Below, piece by piece: positions 1,912-17,669 of a stretch of DNA of 64,000 nt (positions are counted from its first letter, which is position 1; each line of letters begins with the position of its first letter). Made by a program: the position numbers and the translations under genes. Under the pieces are notes generated by a model. The model was not told the origin of the DNA. It ran no database searches and worked only from the letters and a program-made list of their open reading frames with translations. Source of the stretch: Streptomyces sp. WP-1. GTDB lineage: Bacteria > Actinomycetota > Actinomycetes > Streptomycetales > Streptomycetaceae. The stretch is taken from positions 2,046,001-2,110,000 of the forward strand of contig NZ_CP123923.1 of assembly GCF_030450125.1 (NCBI RefSeq), given 5' to 3'.

Positions 1912-2445
1912 ATGGACCAGGCGAACCCCTTCGAGACCCCACGCACCTACTCGCTGCACCGCGCCGAGTACCTGGTGGGCCTCGCCGTCACCACCGGGAT
2001 GATCATCTACCACTTCGGTGACATCCGCTGGCTGCCGGCGCTCGGGCTGTTCCTCTACATCGACCTGATCGGCTACATCCCCGGCGCCATCGCCTTCCGC
2101 AAGAGCGGCGGGCGGCCGATCCACAAGGCGTACTACGTCCTCTACAACGTCATGCACAGCCTCATCACCCAGGGCGCGGTCGCCGCGCTGTGGTGCTGGC
2201 TGGTCAAGCCGGAGTGGGCGCTGCTGGTGCTGCCGTTTCATCTCTTCGGCGACCGGGGCCTGTTCGGCAACTTCATGAAGTCCTTCGCGCTGCCCTTCGA
2301 GCCGGTGCGCCAGGCGGGATACCTCCACCTCCTGGACGACCTGGGGCTGGCGCACCCCAAGCCGGTCGGGCACGAGATGGACCCGGTGCCCGTCGGGCAC
2401 GTCCCCGCGCGGCCCGTCGTACGCGAGACGGAGGCCGTACGATGA
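1912..2445 (+). CDS. Membrane protein, candidate N-N bond-forming enzyme (VlmO-like)
   Basis: A 177-residue integral membrane protein with about four hydrophobic segments (roughly residues 22-38, 42-60, 75-95, 98-115). Polar conserved-looking patches lie between them: YNVMHS and PFHLFGDRGLFGN. A histidine-containing soluble tail follows. In valanimycin biosynthesis a small membrane protein, VlmO, joins the two nitrogens of an O-seryl alkylhydroxylamine. This gene sits next to a VlmB-like diiron gene and a flavin reductase in the same operon, so the same role is proposed. Membrane topology is visible; the enzymatic role is inference. GGAG precedes the ATG, and the stop overlaps the next start (ATGA). 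Confidence 0.6.
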   Translation: MDQANPFETPRTYSLHRAEYLVGLAVTTGMIIYHFGDIRWLPALGLFLYIDLIGYIPGAIAFRKSGGRPIHKAYYVLYNVMHSLITQGAVAALWCWLVKPEWALLVLPFHLFGDRGLFGNFMKSFALPFEPVRQAGYLHLLDDLGLAHPKPVGHEMDPVPVGHVPARPVVRETEAVR

Positions 2446-2990
2446 CCACCGCCGCGACCCCGGTGCGCCGGGCGGTGCGCCAGGACCCGGCCGAGCGCCG
2501 GCGGGCCCTGTACCACCTGGCCTCCGCGGTGTCCGTGCTCACCACGGGCCCCGAGGAACGGATGCACGGCACCACCGCGAGCACCGTCACCCTGGTCTCG
2601 CGCTCGCCCCTGCTGGTCGGGGTGGTACTGCGGGCGGGCTCGTCCTTCGCCCGGCTCGCCGCCGCCGAGGGCCGGTTCGCGATCAATGTGCTCGGCGGCG
2701 AACAGGCCGACGTGGCGCGGCGGTTCGCGAACAGCTCGCGGCCCGACGGCAGTGCGGCCTTCGCCGGCCTCGCCTGGACCACCGACCGCTACGCCCAGGC
2801 CCCGCTGATCGCGGGAGCCCTCGCCCACTATGTCTGCCGGTTCCACTCCGCGCACGCCGCGGGCGACAGCGAGCTGCTGCTCGGCCATGTCGTCCGGGCC
2901 ACCGCGGACGAGGGCCTGCCGCTGCTGAGCTACACCGGCGGGCTGTTCGCCGGTTCCCTGCGTCCGGCGAAGGAGACCGCCGCATCATGA
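2442..2990 (+). CDS. Flavin reductase (FMN-binding split barrel)
   Basis: A 182-residue flavin-reductase-like protein. Typical elements are FHLASAVSVLTTG-type N-terminal strands, a TASTVTLVSRSPLLVGV core, SSFARLAAAEGRFAINVL and a C-terminal GGLFAG turn. It supplies reduced FMN/FAD to a partner oxygenase, as VlmR does for the isobutylamine N-hydroxylase VlmH. No VlmH-like flavin monooxygenase lies in the window, so the partner is probably left of base 1 or elsewhere. The ATG overlaps the previous stop (ATGA), and its own stop overlaps the next gene. The upstream in-frame extension was rejected because it would run deep into the membrane-protein gene. Confidence 0.8.
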   Translation: MTTAATPVRRAVRQDPAERRRALYHLASAVSVLTTGPEERMHGTTASTVTLVSRSPLLVGVVLRAGSSFARLAAAEGRFAINVLGGEQADVARRFANSSRPDGSAAFAGLAWTTDRYAQAPLIAGALAHYVCRFHSAHAAGDSELLLGHVVRATADEGLPLLSYTGGLFAGSLRPAKETAAS

Positions 2991-3967
2991 CCGCACCCGT
3001 TGCCCCCGAGGCCGACTGGGAGAAGGCCCCCGGCCTGCTGGACGGCGCGAAGGAACTCACCCTCGGCCCCGAGGAGTGCGACCTCGCCTACTGGTTCACC
3101 TCCGTCGCCCAGGGCACCCTGCGCGACCGGGGTGCCACCGGCCACCATGTGGACGCCCTCACCCCCGACTTCCTGAAGGCCCCCGGCCCGCTGCGCGAGG
3201 CGCTGATCCTGGAGTTCGGCTTCCGGGCCCTCTCCGAGGAACTGGCCACCCGGCTGCTCGGCCACTACGTGACCATCGCGCCCTCCATCCCCGAGATGGA
3301 GTTCTACGCCACCCAGCTGATCGACGAGGCCCGGCACGCCCGCGTCTTCCGCCAGCACCTGGTGGACCTCGGCATCCCGCAGAGCGCCCTGCTGCGGGAG
3401 ATCGAGGAGATGACCCAGGACTACCGCAAGCGGGTCCTGAACCCGGTGGTGGACTTCACCCTGGACATCGTCCGCGACAAGGCCGACTTCCCCGGCGGCG
3501 TCGGCGTGTTCGCCATCATCATCGAGGGCGTCCTCGCCCCCGCCGCCGAGCTGAGCGAGCGCAAGTGGACCCCGCTGTCCCCGGCGACCGGCGAGATCTC
3601 CCGCGGCACCGCCATCGACGAGATCCGCCACCTCACCGTGGCCAGCACCATCCTGCGCGACCACCTCGTCGAGCACCCCGAGTACACCCCCCGGCTCCTG
3701 GAGATCCTGCGCTCCGGCGTCGAGCTGTGGGACGAGCTGCCGGACCGGGAGTTCGTCATCCACCGCGAGGAGCTGTTCCAGGAAGGCATGTTCAAGCACG
3801 CCGACCTGATCGGCGACTACGAGGTCTGGCCGGGCGTCCGCCTCCTCGACACCACTGCCGACCAGCGCTACGACATGGCCGAGCAGTGGACCGACGAGAT
3901 GGCCGAGGTCCGCATGAAGTACATGGGCCTGCCCGTCGAGGTCCTCGCCTCGGAGGCCGGCGCATGA
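2987..3967 (+). CDS. Ferritin-like diiron oxygenase (VlmB/AurF type)
   Basis: A 326-residue helical diiron protein. Two iron-binding motifs are visible: EFYATQLIDEARH in the first half, and EGVLAP followed by TAIDEIRHL in the second. This gives the Glu/Glu-X-X-His pairs of AurF-type N-oxygenases. VlmB of the valanimycin pathway is a diiron enzyme reported to oxidise an N-N single bond to azoxy. Given the VlmO-, VlmA- and VlmL-like genes here, azoxy formation is the leading role. N-hydroxylation of the amine, as AurF does on arylamines, is the alternative. A ferredoxin gene at 10137-10463 could deliver electrons. It overlaps both neighbours by ATGA. Confidence 0.8.
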   Translation: MTAPVAPEADWEKAPGLLDGAKELTLGPEECDLAYWFTSVAQGTLRDRGATGHHVDALTPDFLKAPGPLREALILEFGFRALSEELATRLLGHYVTIAPSIPEMEFYATQLIDEARHARVFRQHLVDLGIPQSALLREIEEMTQDYRKRVLNPVVDFTLDIVRDKADFPGGVGVFAIIIEGVLAPAAELSERKWTPLSPATGEISRGTAIDEIRHLTVASTILRDHLVEHPEYTPRLLEILRSGVELWDELPDREFVIHREELFQEGMFKHADLIGDYEVWPGVRLLDTTADQRYDMAEQWTDEMAEVRMKYMGLPVEVLASEAGA

Positions 3968-6567: not shown

Positions 6568-8052
6568 ATGTCCACCACCAGTGGTTCGCCGCCCGCCACG
6601 GGGCGGCTCGGTACGGCGCACATCCTGTTTCTCATCGTCGCCGCCGCGGCCCCGCTCTCCGCGATGGTCGGTACGGTTCCGCTCGCGTTCGCGTTCGGGG
6701 ACGGGGCCGGGGTGCCGGCCGCGTTCCTGTTCGCCGGGGTGACCCTGCTCTGCTTCTCGGCCGGGTACGCGGTCAGCGCGCGGCGCACCGGCGGGTCCGG
6801 CGGGTTCTACGCCTCCGTCGCCGACGGGCTCGGCCGGCCCCCGGCGGTCGCGGCCGGATACATGGCACTGCTGTCGTACAACTGCGCGACCATCGGGCTG
6901 GCCGGCGCCCTCGGATACTTCACCCGGCTCGTGCTGGCCGCCCATGGGCTGACGGTGTCCTGGGAGTGGTGCGCGGCGGTCGGGCTGGTGCTGACCGCGG
7001 TGCTCGGCTACCGGGAGATCGCGCTGAGCGCCCGGGTGCTGGCCCTGCTGATGCTGGGCGAGATCGGGGTGCTGGCGGCGCTGGACGTGGCGATCCTCGT
7101 CCGGCACGGGGTGCACGCGCTGCCCGCCGCCTCGTTCTCCCCGCACACCGCCGCCGGCCCCGGCGTCGGGGTCTCGCTGATGTTCGCGTTCGTGTCCTTC
7201 ATCGGGTTCGAGTCGGCGGCGCTGTACGGCAAGGAGGCGCGCGACCCGGAGCGCAGCGTGCCCCGGGCGACGTACGCGGCCGCCGCGCTGATCGCCGGGT
7301 TCTACGCGCTGACCAGCTGGCTGGCGGTGGGCGAGATCGGCCCGGACCATGTGCGCGAGGTCGCGGGCAAGCAGATGGGCGACCTGTTCTTCGGACTCGG
7401 CGACGACTTCCTCGGCTCGGCGGGCAGCACGCTGCTCCAAGTCCTGCTGTGCACCAGCCTGTTCGCTGCGACGCTGGCCCTGCACAGCGCCGCCAACCGC
7501 TACGCCCAGGTCCTCGCCCAGGACGGGCTGCTCCCCCGCACCCTGGCCGCCGAGCACAGGCGGCACGGCTCCCCGCACCGGGCGAGCGTCTGGCAGAGCG
7601 TGGTGACCGCGCTGGTGCTGGCCGGGTTCGCGGTCGCGGGCCTGGACCCGTACGCCGACCTGACCACCAGCATGCTCGGCCTCGGCACCCTCGGCATCGT
7701 CACGCTCCAGGCACTGGCCGCGCTGTCGGTGCTCGGGCTGCGGCTGCGCGCCGGGCACGGGCACTGGTGGAAGGAGACCCTCGCCCCGCTGCTGGGCTTC
7801 GCCGGGCTCGCCACCTCCGTGTGGCTGGTGGTCGGCAACTTCGACATGCTCACCGGTTCCCCCTCCGAGGTGATCGCCGCGCTGCCCTGGCTGCTGCCGC
7901 TGGTCGCGCTCGGCGGCCTCATCTACGCGCTCCGGCTGCGCGGCGCCCATCCGCTGCGCTACCGGCTGCTCGGCACCCGGCACACCGCCGCCCCCGCCAC
8001 CCCCGACCTCTCCCCCACCCCGTCAGGAGACCGCCATGCACGATCCCAATGA
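6568..8052 (+). CDS. APC-family amino acid permease
   Basis: A 494-residue permease with about 12 hydrophobic segments beginning near residue 20 (HILFLIVAAAAPLSAMVG), the usual APC opening. FVSFIGFESAALYGKEARDP is the family's conserved region around TM6. The ATG at 6568 has GGAG six bases upstream. The reading frame is open far upstream inside the KAS II gene, but that part is a shadow. Its 3' end overlaps the seryl-tRNA synthetase start by 17 bases, so the two are co-translated. It may import an amino acid precursor such as serine, or export product; the direction is unknown. Confidence 0.82.
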   Translation: MSTTSGSPPATGRLGTAHILFLIVAAAAPLSAMVGTVPLAFAFGDGAGVPAAFLFAGVTLLCFSAGYAVSARRTGGSGGFYASVADGLGRPPAVAAGYMALLSYNCATIGLAGALGYFTRLVLAAHGLTVSWEWCAAVGLVLTAVLGYREIALSARVLALLMLGEIGVLAALDVAILVRHGVHALPAASFSPHTAAGPGVGVSLMFAFVSFIGFESAALYGKEARDPERSVPRATYAAAALIAGFYALTSWLAVGEIGPDHVREVAGKQMGDLFFGLGDDFLGSAGSTLLQVLLCTSLFAATLALHSAANRYAQVLAQDGLLPRTLAAEHRRHGSPHRASVWQSVVTALVLAGFAVAGLDPYADLTTSMLGLGTLGIVTLQALAALSVLGLRLRAGHGHWWKETLAPLLGFAGLATSVWLVVGNFDMLTGSPSEVIAALPWLLPLVALGGLIYALRLRGAHPLRYRLLGTRHTAAPATPDLSPTPSGDRHARSQ

Positions 8053-9313
8053 GCTGATCGAGGCCGGCGAGGACGCCAGGCGCCGCCTGGCCCGCCGCCG
8101 TTACGACCTCGACCTGGACGCCGTGGGCGGTGCGCTGCGCGCCCGTTCGGCCGCCAACGCCGAGGTGACCCGGCTGCGCACCGAGCTGAACAGAACGGCC
8201 AAGGCGCGCCGTTCGGGCCCGCCCAGCGAGGCGGAGAAGGAGGCCGCCCGCGCGCTGCGCGCCGAGGTGCAGCAGGCGGAGGCCCTCGCCCGGGTGGCCG
8301 CGGGAGACCTGACCGAGCTGCTGCTCGGCATCCCCAACCTGCCGCTGGACAGCGTCCCGGACGGCGACTCCGAGAAGGAGGCCGTGGAGGTGCGCCGGGG
8401 CGGACCCGCGCCGCGTCCGGCGAAGGGCGCCCGGCACCACGCGGAGATCGGCGAGACCCTCGGCATCCTGGACCCGCCGGCCGCGGCCAAGCTGTCCGGC
8501 GCCCGGTTCAGCGTGGCGCACGGCGCCGGGGCCCGCCTGGAGCGCGCCCTCGCCGACTTCTTCCTCGACCTGCACACCCGCGAGCACGGCTACACCGAGC
8601 AGTCGGTGCCGTTCCTCGTCTCCCGGGACACCATGACCGGCACCGGACAGCTCCCCAAGTTCGAGGAGGACCTGTTCCGCACCCAGGTCGGCGAGCGGGA
8701 GCTGTTCCTGATCCCGACCGCGGAGGTGCCGCTGACCAACCTGGTCTCCGGCGAGCTGCTGGACGCGCGGGCGCTGCCGTACGCCTACACGGCCCGCACC
8801 CCCTGCTTCCGCGCGGAGGCGGGCGCGTACGGCCGCGACACCCGGGGCGTGCTGCGGCTGCACCAGTTCGAGAAGGTGGAGCTGGTGCGGATCTGCGCGC
8901 CGGAAGAGGCCCAGGAACAGCTGGAGTTGATGGTCGGGCACGCCGAGGAGTGCCTGCGCAGGCTCGAACTGTCCTTCCGTACCGTGCTGCTGCCCGCGGG
9001 CGACATGGGCTTCTCGGCGCGGATGACGTACGACATCGAGGTGTGGCTGCCGGGCGGTGACGCCTTCCGGGAGATCTCCTCGGTGTCCGACTGCGGCACC
9101 TTCCAGGCGCGGCGCGCGGACATCCGGGTCAAGCGGGCCGACGGCCGCAAGACGCCGGCCGCGACGCTGAACGGCTCGGCGCTGCCGATCGGCCGTACGG
9201 TGGCCGCGCTGCTGGAGCAGGGCGTGCAGGACGACGGTTCGGTGCTGCTGCCGGCGGCGCTCCAGCCGTACACCGGGTTCCGGCGGATCCTGCCGGGCGG
9301 CACGACCGAGTGA
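8036..9313 (+). CDS. Seryl-tRNA synthetase, pathway-type (VlmL-like)
   Basis: A 425-residue class II synthetase. An N-terminal helical hairpin (about residues 20-100, rich in Glu/Arg/Ala) would grip the long variable arm of tRNA-Ser. Motif 2 is FRAEAGAYGRDTRG followed by RLHQFEKVEL. Motif 3 reads LNGSALPIGRTVAALLE, slightly off the usual LNGSG-L-V-GRT. Valanimycin producers carry a second SerRS, VlmL, that makes Ser-tRNA for antibiotic assembly rather than translation. With the DUF2156 transferase and an odd class II tRNA 5.5 kb away, the same use is proposed. Whether the genome has another housekeeping serS cannot be seen here. Confidence 0.9.
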   Translation: MHDPNELIEAGEDARRRLARRRYDLDLDAVGGALRARSAANAEVTRLRTELNRTAKARRSGPPSEAEKEAARALRAEVQQAEALARVAAGDLTELLLGIPNLPLDSVPDGDSEKEAVEVRRGGPAPRPAKGARHHAEIGETLGILDPPAAAKLSGARFSVAHGAGARLERALADFFLDLHTREHGYTEQSVPFLVSRDTMTGTGQLPKFEEDLFRTQVGERELFLIPTAEVPLTNLVSGELLDARALPYAYTARTPCFRAEAGAYGRDTRGVLRLHQFEKVELVRICAPEEAQEQLELMVGHAEECLRRLELSFRTVLLPAGDMGFSARMTYDIEVWLPGGDAFREISSVSDCGTFQARRADIRVKRADGRKTPAATLNGSALPIGRTVAALLEQGVQDDGSVLLPAALQPYTGFRRILPGGTTE

Positions 9314-13587: not shown

Positions 13588-14595
13588 TCAGAACGCCTTG
13601 CAGGCGCGGAAGATGTGCGCGAAGCCGGGCAGCGAGGCCTGCGGTCCGTCGAAGGCGACGTACTCGGGGATCAGCAGGTCGGGGGCCCACTTCTGCTTGT
13701 ACGACAGCTGGGTCTGCGCCGGGTACAGCGCCGCGCCCTCGGCCCACAGGGCGTGCATCAGCCACTGGAACGCCGGGCTGTGGCCCTCCAGTTCGTGACC
13801 GGCGTCGAGCCCGGTGAACGGCGTGAAACCGAAGTGCAGCCACTCGACGCCCTCGGCGCGGAAGACCTCGATGGCGTGCGCGTTGATGGCCTCCATCAGG
13901 CCCGGGGAGCCCTCGGGGATGCGCCGGCTGAGGTCGTGCATCCAGCCGGCCCGGCTGCCGTAGACCGGCGAGTACGAGATGTAGGCGACCGGCTCGCCGT
14001 CGATGGTGCCGCTGAACAGCCGGCGCTGCGCCTGGGCGGGCCCGCCGATCTGGCCGACCAGGAACTCCAGCTGCTGCGCGCCGCCCTTGGAGCCGAGCCA
14101 CGCCTTGTCGATCACGGCGATGTCGTCGGCGACCTCGGCCGCGTCGACCTCCTGGATCTGGAGGCCGTTGCGCAGCGCGCGGGAGATCTTGTTGCGCAGC
14201 TGCATGAACTTGGTGCCGCGCAGCGTGAAGTCCGCCAGGCTCACCGCCCAGGAGGCGCCGATCTGGTTGACGACACAGCCGCGCGCCGCGTACCGCTCGG
14301 CGTCGGCGCGCTGGAGCTGCACGCCGACCAGGCTCAGGCCCTCGTCCCGGACGTAGGTCCGGAAGGCGTCCAGGAGGGTGTCGTAGTCGCCCTCGGCCGT
14401 GAACGGGCCGCCGAACTGCACGGCCCAGCGGCCGGTGCGGCGGTAGACGACGACACCGTCCACGCCTGGGACGGTGAAGACACTGTTTCCGCTGTTGAGC
14501 GCGAGGAAGGAACTCGGGTTCTCGCTCGTGGTGTGGGCTCGTATCGCGTCGAGAATCAGACTGTCCGCACCGGTCTCGGTGGTGATCGCGGTCAT
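13588..14595 (-). CDS. DUF2156/MprF-C-like aminoacyl-tRNA transferase (VlmA-like)
   Basis: A 335-residue double-GNAT-like protein of the LPG-synthase C-terminal (DUF2156) type. Signatures are KFMQLRNKISRALRNGL in the middle, EWLHFGFTPFTGL and a C-terminal YKQKWAPDLLIPEYVAF. MprF relatives move an amino acid from aminoacyl-tRNA to a lipid. VlmA of valanimycin moves serine from Ser-tRNA to isobutylhydroxylamine. Here it would load serine onto the alkylhydroxylamine. ATG 14595 is preferred because AAAGGGG lies just upstream; an in-frame GTG/ATG extension of 27 residues has no such site. The shared upstream region carries the SARP box and, facing away, the tRNA gene. Confidence 0.85.
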   Translation of the reverse strand: MTAITTETGADSLILDAIRAHTTSENPSSFLALNSGNSVFTVPGVDGVVVYRRTGRWAVQFGGPFTAEGDYDTLLDAFRTYVRDEGLSLVGVQLQRADAERYAARGCVVNQIGASWAVSLADFTLRGTKFMQLRNKISRALRNGLQIQEVDAAEVADDIAVIDKAWLGSKGGAQQLEFLVGQIGGPAQAQRRLFSGTIDGEPVAYISYSPVYGSRAGWMHDLSRRIPEGSPGLMEAINAHAIEVFRAEGVEWLHFGFTPFTGLDAGHELEGHSPAFQWLMHALWAEGAALYPAQTQLSYKQKWAPDLLIPEYVAFDGPQASLPGFAHIFRACKAF

Positions 14596-14688
14596 TCCCT
14601 TACCCCTTTCGGGAGCGTTTTCCGTCAAAGGGAGTACAGCACCGCGACGTTGCCCTGGAAAAGAGCAGTTGGGCATTCATTTACCTGT

Positions 14689-14717
14689 GTCAGAACCGTG
14701 TCAGCATTCCGTCAGCA
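14689..14717 (+). promoter_or_regulatory. SARP box in front of the tRNA-like gene
   Basis: Heptamers GTCAGAA, GTCAGCA and GTCAGCA start at 14689, 14700 and 14711, an exact 11-base period with 4-base spacers. Eight bases after the last repeat is CAATGT, a possible -10 element, placing transcription start near 14738. That is about 35 bases before the tRNA-like gene at 14772. The same repeats could also act on the divergent DUF2156 gene. Confidence 0.8.
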
Positions 14718-14771: not shown

Positions 14772-14865
14772 GGAGAGGTGCCCGGAGTGGCTGATCGGGG
14801 ACCGTGTGCACCGCGCTGGTCGGGCCTTACGGCCCACGCAGGTTCAAATCCTGCCCTCTCCGCCA
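14772..14865 (+). tRNA. tRNA-Ser-like class II RNA with aberrant anticodon arm
   Basis: Acceptor strands GGAGAGG (14772-14778) and CCTCTCC (14855-14861) pair perfectly. A G discriminator and encoded CCA follow. The T arm is canonical (GCAGG, TTCAAAT, CCTGC). The long variable arm is a perfect 5-bp stem GGGCC/GGCCC with a TTAC loop, the mark of a class II (Ser) tRNA. The D arm fits (CCC/GGG, GG in loop). The anticodon arm does not. The segment 14801-14820 is 20 bases instead of 17 and pairs only four bases (ACCG with TGGT). That leaves a loop of about 12 bases with no serine anticodon centred in it. SerRS reads the variable arm and acceptor, not the anticodon, so charging is plausible while decoding is not. 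Confidence 0.8.
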
Positions 14866-15151: not shown

Positions 15152-15949
15152 ATGCTGAGGTTCTCCGTTCTCGGAGCGCTGGAGATACGCACCGCCGCCG
15201 GTGAGGCGGACGTGTGCGGCGATCTGCAGCGCACTCTGGTACAGACCCTGCTGGTCAGCGAGGGCCGGCCGGTGTCCGGGGAGAGCCTGGCGGAGGAGAT
15301 GTGGGGCGAGACCCTGCCCGACCACCGGGCCAACGCCCTCCAGGCGCACATCAGCCGGCTGCGGCGCAGGCTGCGCGCGCTGGAGCCGGACCGCCCGGCC
15401 TCCCGGGTGACCATCCATCCGGCCGGCTACCGGCTCAGCGTCGGCGAGGGCGAGCTGGACGCGGCGGAGTTCGTACGGGCCGTACGGCAGGCCGAGTCGG
15501 CCGGGCCCAAGGACCCCGAGCACACCGCGCGGATGCTCGGCGAGGCCCTCGCGCTGTGGCGGGGCCCGGTGTTCGGCGGCTTCCCCGGCGGCACCATGTG
15601 CCAGCTCGCCGGGGCGCGGTACGAGGAGTACCGGATGCGCGCGATGGAACTGCGCTTCGACGCCGAACTGCGCCTGGGCAGACACGCCTCGGTGCTCGCG
15701 GAGCTGGCCGAGGCGCACACCAACCACTCGCTGCGCGAGCGCTTCTGCGAGCAGCTGATGGTCGCCCTGTACTGCTCGGGCCGGCAGGCCGACGCGCTCG
15801 ACGTGTTCCGCCGGATGCGCCGCAGGCTGGACGAGGAGCTGGGGATCCAGCCGTCGCCCGCGCTGCGCAAGGTGGAGCTGGCGATCCTCTCGCACGATCC
15901 GGCGCTCACCGGCGATCACCCGGTCCCGACGGCGTTGCAGCCGGTGTGA
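15152..15949 (+). CDS. SARP-family transcriptional activator
   Basis: A 265-residue Streptomyces antibiotic regulatory protein. An OmpR-like winged helix fills residues 1-95, opening MLRFSVLGALEIR, and a bacterial transcriptional activation domain runs to the C-terminus. There is no NB-ARC or TPR extension, so it is a small ActII-ORF4/VlmI-type activator. GGGGGAAAG sets ATG 15152. It should bind the 11-base-period heptamers found at 13329-13357, 14689-14717 and 16003-16042. No TTA codon was noticed, so direct bldA control is unlikely. No SARP box was seen in front of the gene itself. Confidence 0.9.
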   Translation: MLRFSVLGALEIRTAAGEADVCGDLQRTLVQTLLVSEGRPVSGESLAEEMWGETLPDHRANALQAHISRLRRRLRALEPDRPASRVTIHPAGYRLSVGEGELDAAEFVRAVRQAESAGPKDPEHTARMLGEALALWRGPVFGGFPGGTMCQLAGARYEEYRMRAMELRFDAELRLGRHASVLAELAEAHTNHSLRERFCEQLMVALYCSGRQADALDVFRRMRRRLDEELGIQPSPALRKVELAILSHDPALTGDHPVPTALQPV

Positions 15950-16002: not shown

Positions 16003-16042
16003 GTAAGCGGCCCGTCAGCGCCCGGTCAGACCGCGTTGTCAC
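16003..16042 (+). promoter_or_regulatory. SARP box for the carboxylase genes
   Basis: Heptamers GTAAGCG (16003), GTCAGCG (16014) and GTCAGAC (16025), then a weak TTGTCAC (16036), repeat every 11 bases. CACGAT, eight bases after the third repeat, could serve as -10. The box lies about 85 bases before the carboxylase start and after the SARP gene, tying malonyl-CoA supply to the cluster. Confidence 0.7.
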
Positions 16043-16124
16043 GATCGTGTCCGGATCACCCCGGCGGCGGCCCGGCGCGGGCGGCGTCCGATGTCACGTC
16101 ACCTCACCGCAGAGGCAGGCAGAG

Positions 16125-17669
16125 ATGAAGTCCCATATCGCGGAACTGGCCGGCATACGCGAGAGCGTGCTCGCCGGCCCGAGCGAGAAGGCGACCGCGG
16201 CGCAGCACGCCAAGGGCAAGCTGACGGCACGGGAGCGGATCGAACTGCTCCTGGATCCCGGTTCCTTCCAGGAGGTCGAGCCGCTGCGGCGGCACCGGGC
16301 CACCGGTTTCGGCCTGGAGGCGAAGAAGCCGTACACGGACGGTGTGATCACCGGCTGGGGCACGGTCGAGGACCGTACGGTCTTCGTCTACGCGCACGAC
16401 TTCCGGATCTTCGGCGGCGCGCTGGGCGAGGCCCACGCCACCAAGATCCACAAGATCATGGACATGGCCATCGCGGCCGGCGCGCCGCTCGTGTCGCTGA
16501 ACGACGGCGCGGGCGCCCGCATCCAGGAGGGCGTGACCGCGCTCGCCGGGTACGGCGGCATCTTCCGGCGGAACACCGCCGCCTCCGGGGTGATCCCGCA
16601 GATCTCCGTGATGCTCGGCCCGTGCGCGGGCGGCGCCGCCTACTCCCCCGCGCTGACCGACTTCGTCTTCATGGTGCGCGAGACCTCGCAGATGTTCATC
16701 ACCGGACCCGACGTGGTCAAGGCGGTCACCGGCGAGGAGATCACCCAGAACGGCCTGGGCGGCGCGGATGTGCACGCCGAGACCAGCGGGGTCTGCCACT
16801 TCGCCTACGACGACGAGGAGACCTGCCTGGAGGAGGTCCGCTACCTCCTCTCGCTGCTCCCGGGCAACAACCGGGAGAACCCGCCGCGGGTGGAGTGCTC
16901 CGACCCGGCCGACCGGCGCTGCGAGGCGCTGGCCGATCTGGTGCCGGAGGACGGCAACCGGCCGTACGACATGACGAAGGTGATCGAGGAGATCGTCGAC
17001 GACGGCGAGTACCTGGAGGTCCACCAGCGCTGGGCCCGCAACATCATCTGCGCGCTCGCCCGCCTCGACGGCCAGGTCGTCGGCATCATCGCCAACCAGC
17101 CGCAGACCCTCGCCGGCGTCCTCGACATCGAGGCGTCCGAGAAGGCCGCGCGTTTCGTGCAGATGTGCGACGCGTTCAGCATCCCACTGGTCACCCTGCT
17201 GGACGTGCCGGGCTTCCTGCCGGGCGTCGGCCAGGAGCACGGCGGCATCATCCGCCGGGGCGCGAAGCTGCTGTACGCCTACTGCAACGCCACCGTGCCG
17301 CGCATCTCCCTGATCCTGCGCAAGGCGTACGGCGGCGCGTACATCGTGATGGACTCCCAGTCGATCGGCGCGGACCTGACGTTCGCCTGGCCGACGAACG
17401 AGATCGCGGTGATGGGCGCGGAGGGCGCGGCCAATGTCATCTTCCGCCGCCAGATCGCCGACGCCGAGGACCCCGAGGCCATGCGCGCGCGGCTGGTCAA
17501 GGAGTACAAGTCCGAGCTGATGCACCCCTATTACGCCGCCGAGCGCGGCCTCGTCGACGACGTCATCGATCCCGCCGAGACCCGCGAGGTCCTGGTGCGG
17601 TCGCTGGCGATGCTCCGCACGAAGCACGCGGAGAGCCCCGCCCGCAAGCACGGCAACCCCCCTCAATGA
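16125..17669 (+). CDS. Acyl-CoA carboxylase beta (carboxyltransferase) subunit
   Basis: A 514-residue AccB/PccB-type carboxyltransferase with two crotonase-fold halves. The N half has LNDGAGARIQEGV and GPCAGGAAYSPALTDF; the C half has DVPGFLPGVGQEHGGIIRRG and AYGGAYIVM. It would move CO2 from a biotin carrier to acetyl- or propionyl-CoA. The biotinylated alpha subunit is not in the window and would be shared with primary metabolism. Translation starts at ATG 16125. The SARP box upstream argues it is a dedicated malonyl-CoA source for the KAS III/KAS II/ACP set. Confidence 0.9.
   Translation: MKSHIAELAGIRESVLAGPSEKATAAQHAKGKLTARERIELLLDPGSFQEVEPLRRHRATGFGLEAKKPYTDGVITGWGTVEDRTVFVYAHDFRIFGGALGEAHATKIHKIMDMAIAAGAPLVSLNDGAGARIQEGVTALAGYGGIFRRNTAASGVIPQISVMLGPCAGGAAYSPALTDFVFMVRETSQMFITGPDVVKAVTGEEITQNGLGGADVHAETSGVCHFAYDDEETCLEEVRYLLSLLPGNNRENPPRVECSDPADRRCEALADLVPEDGNRPYDMTKVIEEIVDDGEYLEVHQRWARNIICALARLDGQVVGIIANQPQTLAGVLDIEASEKAARFVQMCDAFSIPLVTLLDVPGFLPGVGQEHGGIIRRGAKLLYAYCNATVPRISLILRKAYGGAYIVMDSQSIGADLTFAWPTNEIAVMGAEGAANVIFRRQIADAEDPEAMRARLVKEYKSELMHPYYAAERGLVDDVIDPAETREVLVRSLAMLRTKHAESPARKHGNPPQ

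Follow-up and report, generated by a model that had tools for sequence, protein, structure and literature searches.

In staphylococci, a non-proteogenic tRNA-Gly that keeps its anticodon serves the pentaglycine bridges and is reserved for a non-ribosomal transferase. tmRNA and viral tRNA-like structures have a chargeable tRNA-like end and no anticodon. A cell-wall role has been mentioned for pseudo-tRNAs, and tRNA-Other of Bacillus cereus is a tRNA-like gene outside translation that has a Trp anticodon, is poorly aminoacylated and has been proposed to be a regulatory RNA (PMC3399842). The closest described system is that of valanimycin, in which VlmA, a member of the LPG_synthase_C family (PMC9379638), transfers serine from seryl-tRNA to give O-seryl-isobutylhydroxylamine (PMC9379638, PMC12945691, PMC11705231), and in which an extra seryl-tRNA synthetase (SerRS), VlmL, and a SARP regulator, VlmI, are present (PMC9379638, PMC7040171). 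The available portions of these last two reports mention no cluster tRNA gene. A search of the open PMC literature returned no description of an azoxy-cluster tRNA gene or of an anticodon-less biosynthetic tRNA.

The locus described here lies in a 64-kb stretch of Streptomyces sp. WP-1 DNA, the whole of which we call the window (Table 1). It resembles the valanimycin system in its seryl-tRNA transferase of the same Pfam family, its extra SerRS and its SARP, but differs from it in having a dedicated class II tRNA-like gene without an anticodon loop and in that the SerRS is optional among related loci. In contrast to the staphylococcal tRNA-Gly, the RNA is of the serine type, has a sealed hairpin in place of its anticodon, and occurs in scattered copies with a common SARP-type promoter; nor does it have the Trp anticodon of tRNA-Other. 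Unlike tmRNA and the viral structures, it is a full four-arm tRNA of ~94 nt that has no mRNA part and does not form the 3' end of a genome. It has the class II shape of tRNA-Sec, whose model (RF01852) matches sister copies weakly, but has no UCA anticodon. This identity was rejected because every copy scored fell below the gathering score of 47 bits, the best reaching 30.4. We propose, with a probability of roughly 0.78, that the product of this gene is a seryl carrier dedicated to azoxy biosynthesis and unable to decode.

Table 1. Features of the tRNA-like gene and its surroundings (window positions)
Feature	Position	Strand	Basis or remark
Small protein, VlmO-like (name inferred)	1912..2445	+	No Pfam match
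Ferritin-like oxygenase, VlmB-like (named by inference from gene order and the literature)	2987..3967	+	Weak AurF match below cut-off
Second seryl-tRNA synthetase, VlmL-like	8036..9313	+	TIGR00414, 399.2 bits, over cut-off
VlmA-type aminoacyl-tRNA transferase (LPG_synthase_C)	13588..14595	-	PF09924, 225.9 bits, scanned as 13588-14676; divergent from tRNA-like gene
SARP-type operator, three GTCAG direct repeats, 11-bp spacing	14689..14715	+	Upstream of tRNA-like gene
Class II tRNA-like gene without anticodon loop	14772..14865	+	G73 at 14862, CCA at 14863-14865
Acceptor, GGAGAGG/CCTCTCC	14772..14778 / 14855..14861		Window sequence
D arm	14781..14799		
Anticodon arm, closed hairpin with 3-nt loop	14800..14821	+	Minimum-energy fold; consensus fold of 10 copies
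Long variable arm, GGGCC/GGCCC	14822..14835	+	Sequence; compensatory A-U/G-C changes among copies
T arm	14838..14854		
SARP-family activator gene	15152..15949	+	Trans_reg_C + BTAD; directly downstream of tRNA-like gene
Further three-repeat SARP-type site, one mismatch	16003..16029 (genome 2062003-2062029)	+	Before carboxyltransferase gene
Acyl-CoA carboxyltransferase-type gene	16125..17669	+	PF01039 in ORF 16047-17669; ATG at 16125; behind second SARP-type site

The original prediction for this gene had described an intact class II (Ser-like) body with a discriminator G and an encoded CCA, joined to an anticodon arm that pairs only four bases, shows no serine anticodon and leaves the RNA unable to decode normally. 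The body was confirmed in the sequence, with its 7-bp acceptor, D arm, long variable arm (present in all family copies checked) and T arm, the last of which is ordinary in appearance and so, against our reading, gives no sign of reduced EF-Tu binding. The anticodon arm of a normal tRNA is 17 nt long, and that of the window copy is 22 nt. Four base pairs understate this arm, as the minimum-energy fold places an inner GUGC/GCGC helix, capped by the 3-nt loop ACC, inside the closing GACC/GGTC. On this predicted fold, the sealed arm argues for an RNA that is kept off the ribosome. ARAGORN reported the gene as the sole tRNA gene in the window, forced into a tRNA-Cys(GCA), and the Rfam tRNA model scored it at 28.8 bits under a relaxed threshold, against a gathering score of 29; no Rfam family reached its gathering score anywhere within the 64 kb.

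A canonical reading of the arm can be made for the window copy, with four of five pairs (one mismatch), a 7-nt loop, U33 and a GCA anticodon, and together with the ARAGORN call it would favor a tRNA that decodes or recodes with an unusual anticodon arm, reading Cys codons through GCA, for example. The family as a whole speaks against such a tRNA. All 14 ordinary class II tRNAs have a canonical arm, defined by at least four of five pairs, a 7-nt loop and U33. Among 88 distinct members of the family, only 5 have one (arm-shuffled mean, 10.4; four copies with N gaps or truncations were left out) and 83 do not. None of the 88, the five with a canonical arm included, has a serine anticodon in a 7-nt loop, and the RNA is thus not a decoding tRNA-Ser. 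Folding gave separate anticodon and variable hairpins in the region after the D arm in all 120 distinct copies that start with GGAGAGG in the loci studied, drawn from Streptomyces, Kitasatospora, Actinokineospora, Actinacidiphila and Salinispora records. Their anticodon-arm loops measure 3 (19 copies), 4 (68), 5 (25), 6 (2), 7 (2) or 8 nt (4), so that 112 of the 120 have loops of 3 to 5 nt, and there are 19 GNRA and 10 UNCG loops among them. Judged from these sequences, the pattern is one of a required stem with the decoding constraint absent. The ARAGORN identity, moreover, changes from copy to copy (Cys, Ala, Val, Leu, Ile, Arg or undetermined among relatives). Arm structure and these changes rule out an ordinary tRNA-Ser, tRNA-Cys or recoding tRNA, and we give a decoding role almost no credence; what was originally predicted about lost decoding and the missing serine anticodon stands. 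Leu and Tyr tRNAs carry A73; G73 was found in all 101 family copies that reach that end, two truncated copies being left out.

Searching the host genome with an RNA model (R1) returned ten strong copies, of 94 to 115 bits, and a decayed copy at 0.58 Mb as the next match, with 37.6 bits; because R1 was built on the ten copies of this one genome, very divergent relatives may be missed and end conservation is favored. The window copy lies at 2.06 Mb, and the other nine strong copies lie in the chromosome arms, at 0.45-0.58 and 7.37-7.59 Mb of a 7.62-Mb genome. These nine, like the tandem arrays of related clusters and the SARP-type promoter described below, go beyond what had originally been predicted. 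The acceptor, D and T arms are common to the ten aligned copies, while the anticodon and variable arms vary. RNAalifold, run unguided on the ten, gave the same cloverleaf, with the extended anticodon arm as two short helices. Paired cells amount to 97.9% in the 10-copy alignment and to 97.8% in a 28-row alignment fitted to the model, and pairing in the latter drops sharply once partners are slid by one column. Covariation is modest in the ten copies, where two pairs show changes at both positions, a number also reached in 110 of 500 shuffles and hence not significant, and only the cell count is significant (0 of 500 shuffles). It is clearer in the 28 distinct rows, where five pairs change on both sides, as in 3 of 500 shuffles, as do 17 cells, as in none of 500.

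Copies also multiply in other genomes, up to 17 in one Kitasatospora genome, and such numbers, like the nine arm copies of the host with their differing flanking genes, would be expected of a tRNA-derived repeat that spreads as a functionless passenger, in the manner of a SINE or MITE, and whose VlmA-side copy is an old insertion. Apart from synteny, no neighbor gene is common to the scattered copies, and the transferase adjoins the azoxy copies only. Several of the scattered copies, however, have identical neighbor genes in the host (G000) and in a second genome (G003), which indicates that they are old and have been retained. Divergent copies likewise preserve base pairing and the sealed arm, the promoter is retained where the outer and downstream flanks differ, and the RNA is nearly absent from genomes without VlmA (1 of 234 and 1 of 59, below). 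We consider a passenger repeat quite improbable and return to the carrier reading.

Copies in two further genomes show a symmetrical placement: G062 (S. griseofuscus) has equal-scoring pairs mirrored near its chromosome ends (30535/8690213 and 32880/8687868), and G407 has equal-scoring pairs at both ends, as expected of terminal inverted repeats. The family also occurs on plasmids, at 33 places in 14 Streptomyces plasmid records, with no annotated feature under the best matches listed (from a gene table without RNA genes). A phage or integration-site origin was rejected, as no phage record matches and the copies, plasmid matches notwithstanding, are full length with their own promoter. N runs interrupt two tandem arrays (L120:2702-2894 and L143:9561-9749), whose true copy numbers may differ from those counted.

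The distribution of the RNA family follows that of the VlmA-type transferase. With a VlmA match defined at E 1e-60 and, in Streptomyces, presence of the RNA at E 1e-8, 31 of the 61 Streptomyces genomes that have VlmA carry the family, against 1 of the 234 that do not (Fisher p 7.6e-24). In Kitasatospora, the genus of K. griseola, the figures are 9 of 11 and 1 of 59 (p 8e-9). All p-values are nominal, owing to relatedness among the genomes and to the presence of some of them in more than one collection. The recurring genomes are G033 = G064 and G190 = G066, which have identical coordinates, with G003/L101 and G035/L133 also overlapping. The VlmA and RNA searches were taken to cover an identical set of 295 Streptomyces genomes on the basis of agreeing handles, and stricter filters were applied to whole-genome RNA counts. 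The RNA was seen without a VlmA match at E 1e-60 at G212:C51:1306353 and at G379:C38:72169, the latter copy looking divergent. Conversely, 30 of the 61 VlmA-positive Streptomyces genomes had no family member at E 1e-8; a more sensitive search found weaker matches of 61-62 bits in three VlmA-positive genomes (G153, G330 and G186) and nothing above ordinary-tRNA level in eight others (G117, G130, G123, G308, G107, G251, G321 and G034).

By its transferase and its VlmB-, VlmO- and VlmH-like neighbors, names that rest here on weak domain matches, gene order and the literature, the window locus is predicted to be an azoxy (VlmA-type) cluster, and relatives of the VlmB-like and VlmO-like genes adjoin VlmA in many of the 80 VlmA loci that we obtained by scanning species genomes with the window transferase. 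The original placement of the tRNA-like gene in such a cluster, beside a DUF2156/VlmA-type transferase, is borne out by linkage across these loci: when the related clusters were searched for the same RNA, it was present in 50 of the 80 (74 matches in locus DNA), so that its absence from related clusters, which had been named among the grounds for refutation, does not apply. At least two copies occur in 16 loci, 15 of which hold them in tandem, up to a maximum of four (L141); in the remaining one (L148), the second copy lies ~11 kb away.

Thirty VlmA loci have no nearby copy. Fifteen of them make up one VlmA clade that includes S. rochei (support 100/100), and six genomes of this clade, searched whole, held nothing above ordinary-tRNA level, four of them giving one 40-bit match each, which is that level. 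Such transferases can therefore do without the RNA. Among the 15 other loci, 14 have 1 to 15 strong copies elsewhere in the genome; in the fifteenth (L118), the locus DNA ends 188 bases before the transferase gene, and the draft genome has no copy. One strong copy was seen in G073, the genome of Streptomyces sp. NRRL S-455 (L113). In two near twins of the window cluster that have no copy close by, L103 of S. griseofuscus and L099 of S. murinus, the promoter repeats remain and the local tRNA gene has been deleted except for a decayed 3' piece, with 15 and 9 strong copies elsewhere, respectively. Since loss of the local gene can leave the remote copies in place, the RNA appears from these genomes to act in trans. 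The same loss, together with the differing downstream flanks, led us to reject a cis-acting leader.

The clade that works without the RNA would also suit a different role during activity of the azoxy cluster, in which the charged RNA is not a donor but a decoy or regulator that protects tRNA-Ser or SerRS, or a sensor of serine charging. Donation does not follow from co-occurrence and co-regulation alone, and VlmA is reported to have accepted ordinary labelled Ser-tRNA-Ser (PMC12945691), which counts against a dedicated carrier. We nevertheless regard a decoy or regulator as unlikely. The closest partner of the RNA is the tRNA-using transferase itself, 43 of the 50 loci with a nearby copy having it divergent from the VlmA-type gene and less than 700 bp away, and the tRNA ends are near invariant among 103 copies. 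Sensing of the T-box type, furthermore, needs an anticodon, which this RNA does not have. Donation of serine to the transferase is the role that we prefer.

The second SerRS is less constant than the RNA itself. The cluster SerRS, whose usual N-terminal tRNA-binding domain is matched weakly (30.8 bits), may have a changed tRNA partner, which such a match could reflect. It had been put forward as the charging enzyme, a role not supported for the family in general, and we also rejected the need for a second SerRS: two full-length SerRS genes are present in six of nine RNA-bearing genomes and only one in the other three (G035, G026 and G068), and 22 of the 50 RNA-bearing loci have none in their locus DNA, although 5 of those 22 are less than 20 kb long. 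All eight genomes without the RNA have one full SerRS. A SerRS lies within the locus DNA of 35 of the 80 VlmA loci, none of which belongs to the 15-member clade. On this distribution, VlmA has a steadier partner in the RNA than in the SerRS, and the second SerRS looks optional; where it is missing, charging of the RNA, should it occur, must fall to the housekeeping enzyme.

A common promoter connects the copies to the neighboring regulator. Of 80 copies that stand alone or first in an array, 76 are preceded by the triple GTCAG repeat with at least 12 of its 15 positions matched (shuffled mean 0.2, maximum 3; L101 and L133, which duplicate L076 and L077, were left out), and the remaining four (L009:16586, L009:2970, L068 and L114) score 10 to 11 of 15. 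It mostly ends 54-63 bp before G1 of the tRNA-like gene. None of the 23 internal tandem copies is preceded by the operator, an arrangement that fits transcription of each array as a single unit. The SARP PapR2 has as its consensus GTCAGSS heptamers separated by 4-bp spacers (PMC7040171), and AfsR/SARP-type NCBIfam models match the activator gene of the window below their cut-offs. We infer that the cluster SARP binds the predicted sites. In the host genome, 13 sites match the triple repeat with no more than one mismatch, and the reversed control has none. Seven sites precede tRNA-like copies, one precedes the carboxyltransferase gene in the window, four are found 16-22 kb to the left of the window in the vicinity of a P450/transporter region, and one stands apart from all of these (see below).

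With operators before nearly all first copies, the scattered copies could be mainly binding sites that soak up the SARP, the RNA being incidental to this sponge. Such a reading is very improbable, in that the RNA fold is kept and not the operator alone, and in that the additional copies of tandem arrays bring more RNA but no more operators. As for the sites outside the window, four minus-strand SARP-type triple repeats lie to its left (genome 2027620-2029116 and 2023741; L093), three of which directly precede a 464-aa gene and a P450 gene, and the sites on this side may belong to a further part of this regulon. At G000:C1:5716307-5716333, far from any tRNA-like copy or known cluster part, there is an exact match to the triple GTCAG site.

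SerRS recognizes the acceptor end and the variable arm of its tRNA, not the anticodon. In the mechanism that we propose, the SARP encoded beside the tRNA-like gene would switch on transcription of the azoxy cluster and of the tRNA-like genes, scattered copies included, and the transcript would be cut and CCA-ended as a tRNA is. SerRS, the cluster's own if present and otherwise the housekeeping enzyme, would charge the RNA by way of its acceptor end and long variable arm. The anticodon arm being a closed hairpin, the charged RNA should be unable to read codons, and with its anticodon so replaced, its serine would most likely be handed to a cluster enzyme and not to the ribosome. The VlmA-type transferase would then take this serine for formation of the N-N (azoxy) bond, so that the pathway would have its own pool of serine carriers apart from translation. 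We think it probable that these RNAs constitute a new class of tRNA, with a sealed-hairpin anticodon arm, 1 to 17 copies per genome, a trans-acting regulon under the pathway SARP and a private seryl-tRNA pool beyond the ribosome's reach.

An enzyme that draws its amino acid from aminoacyl-tRNA does so in competition with the ribosome. If our reading is true, this competition has been solved by a tRNA that keeps its charging end and drops its decoding end, with its dosage tied to the pathway activator, and how serine is partitioned between pathway and ribosome becomes directly testable. The tRNA-like gene and its promoter offer a sequence tag for finding azoxy clusters. Our reading would also mean that the control exerted by a SARP can extend to RNA genes at a distance from its own cluster, and that a natural orthogonal tRNA body is on offer.
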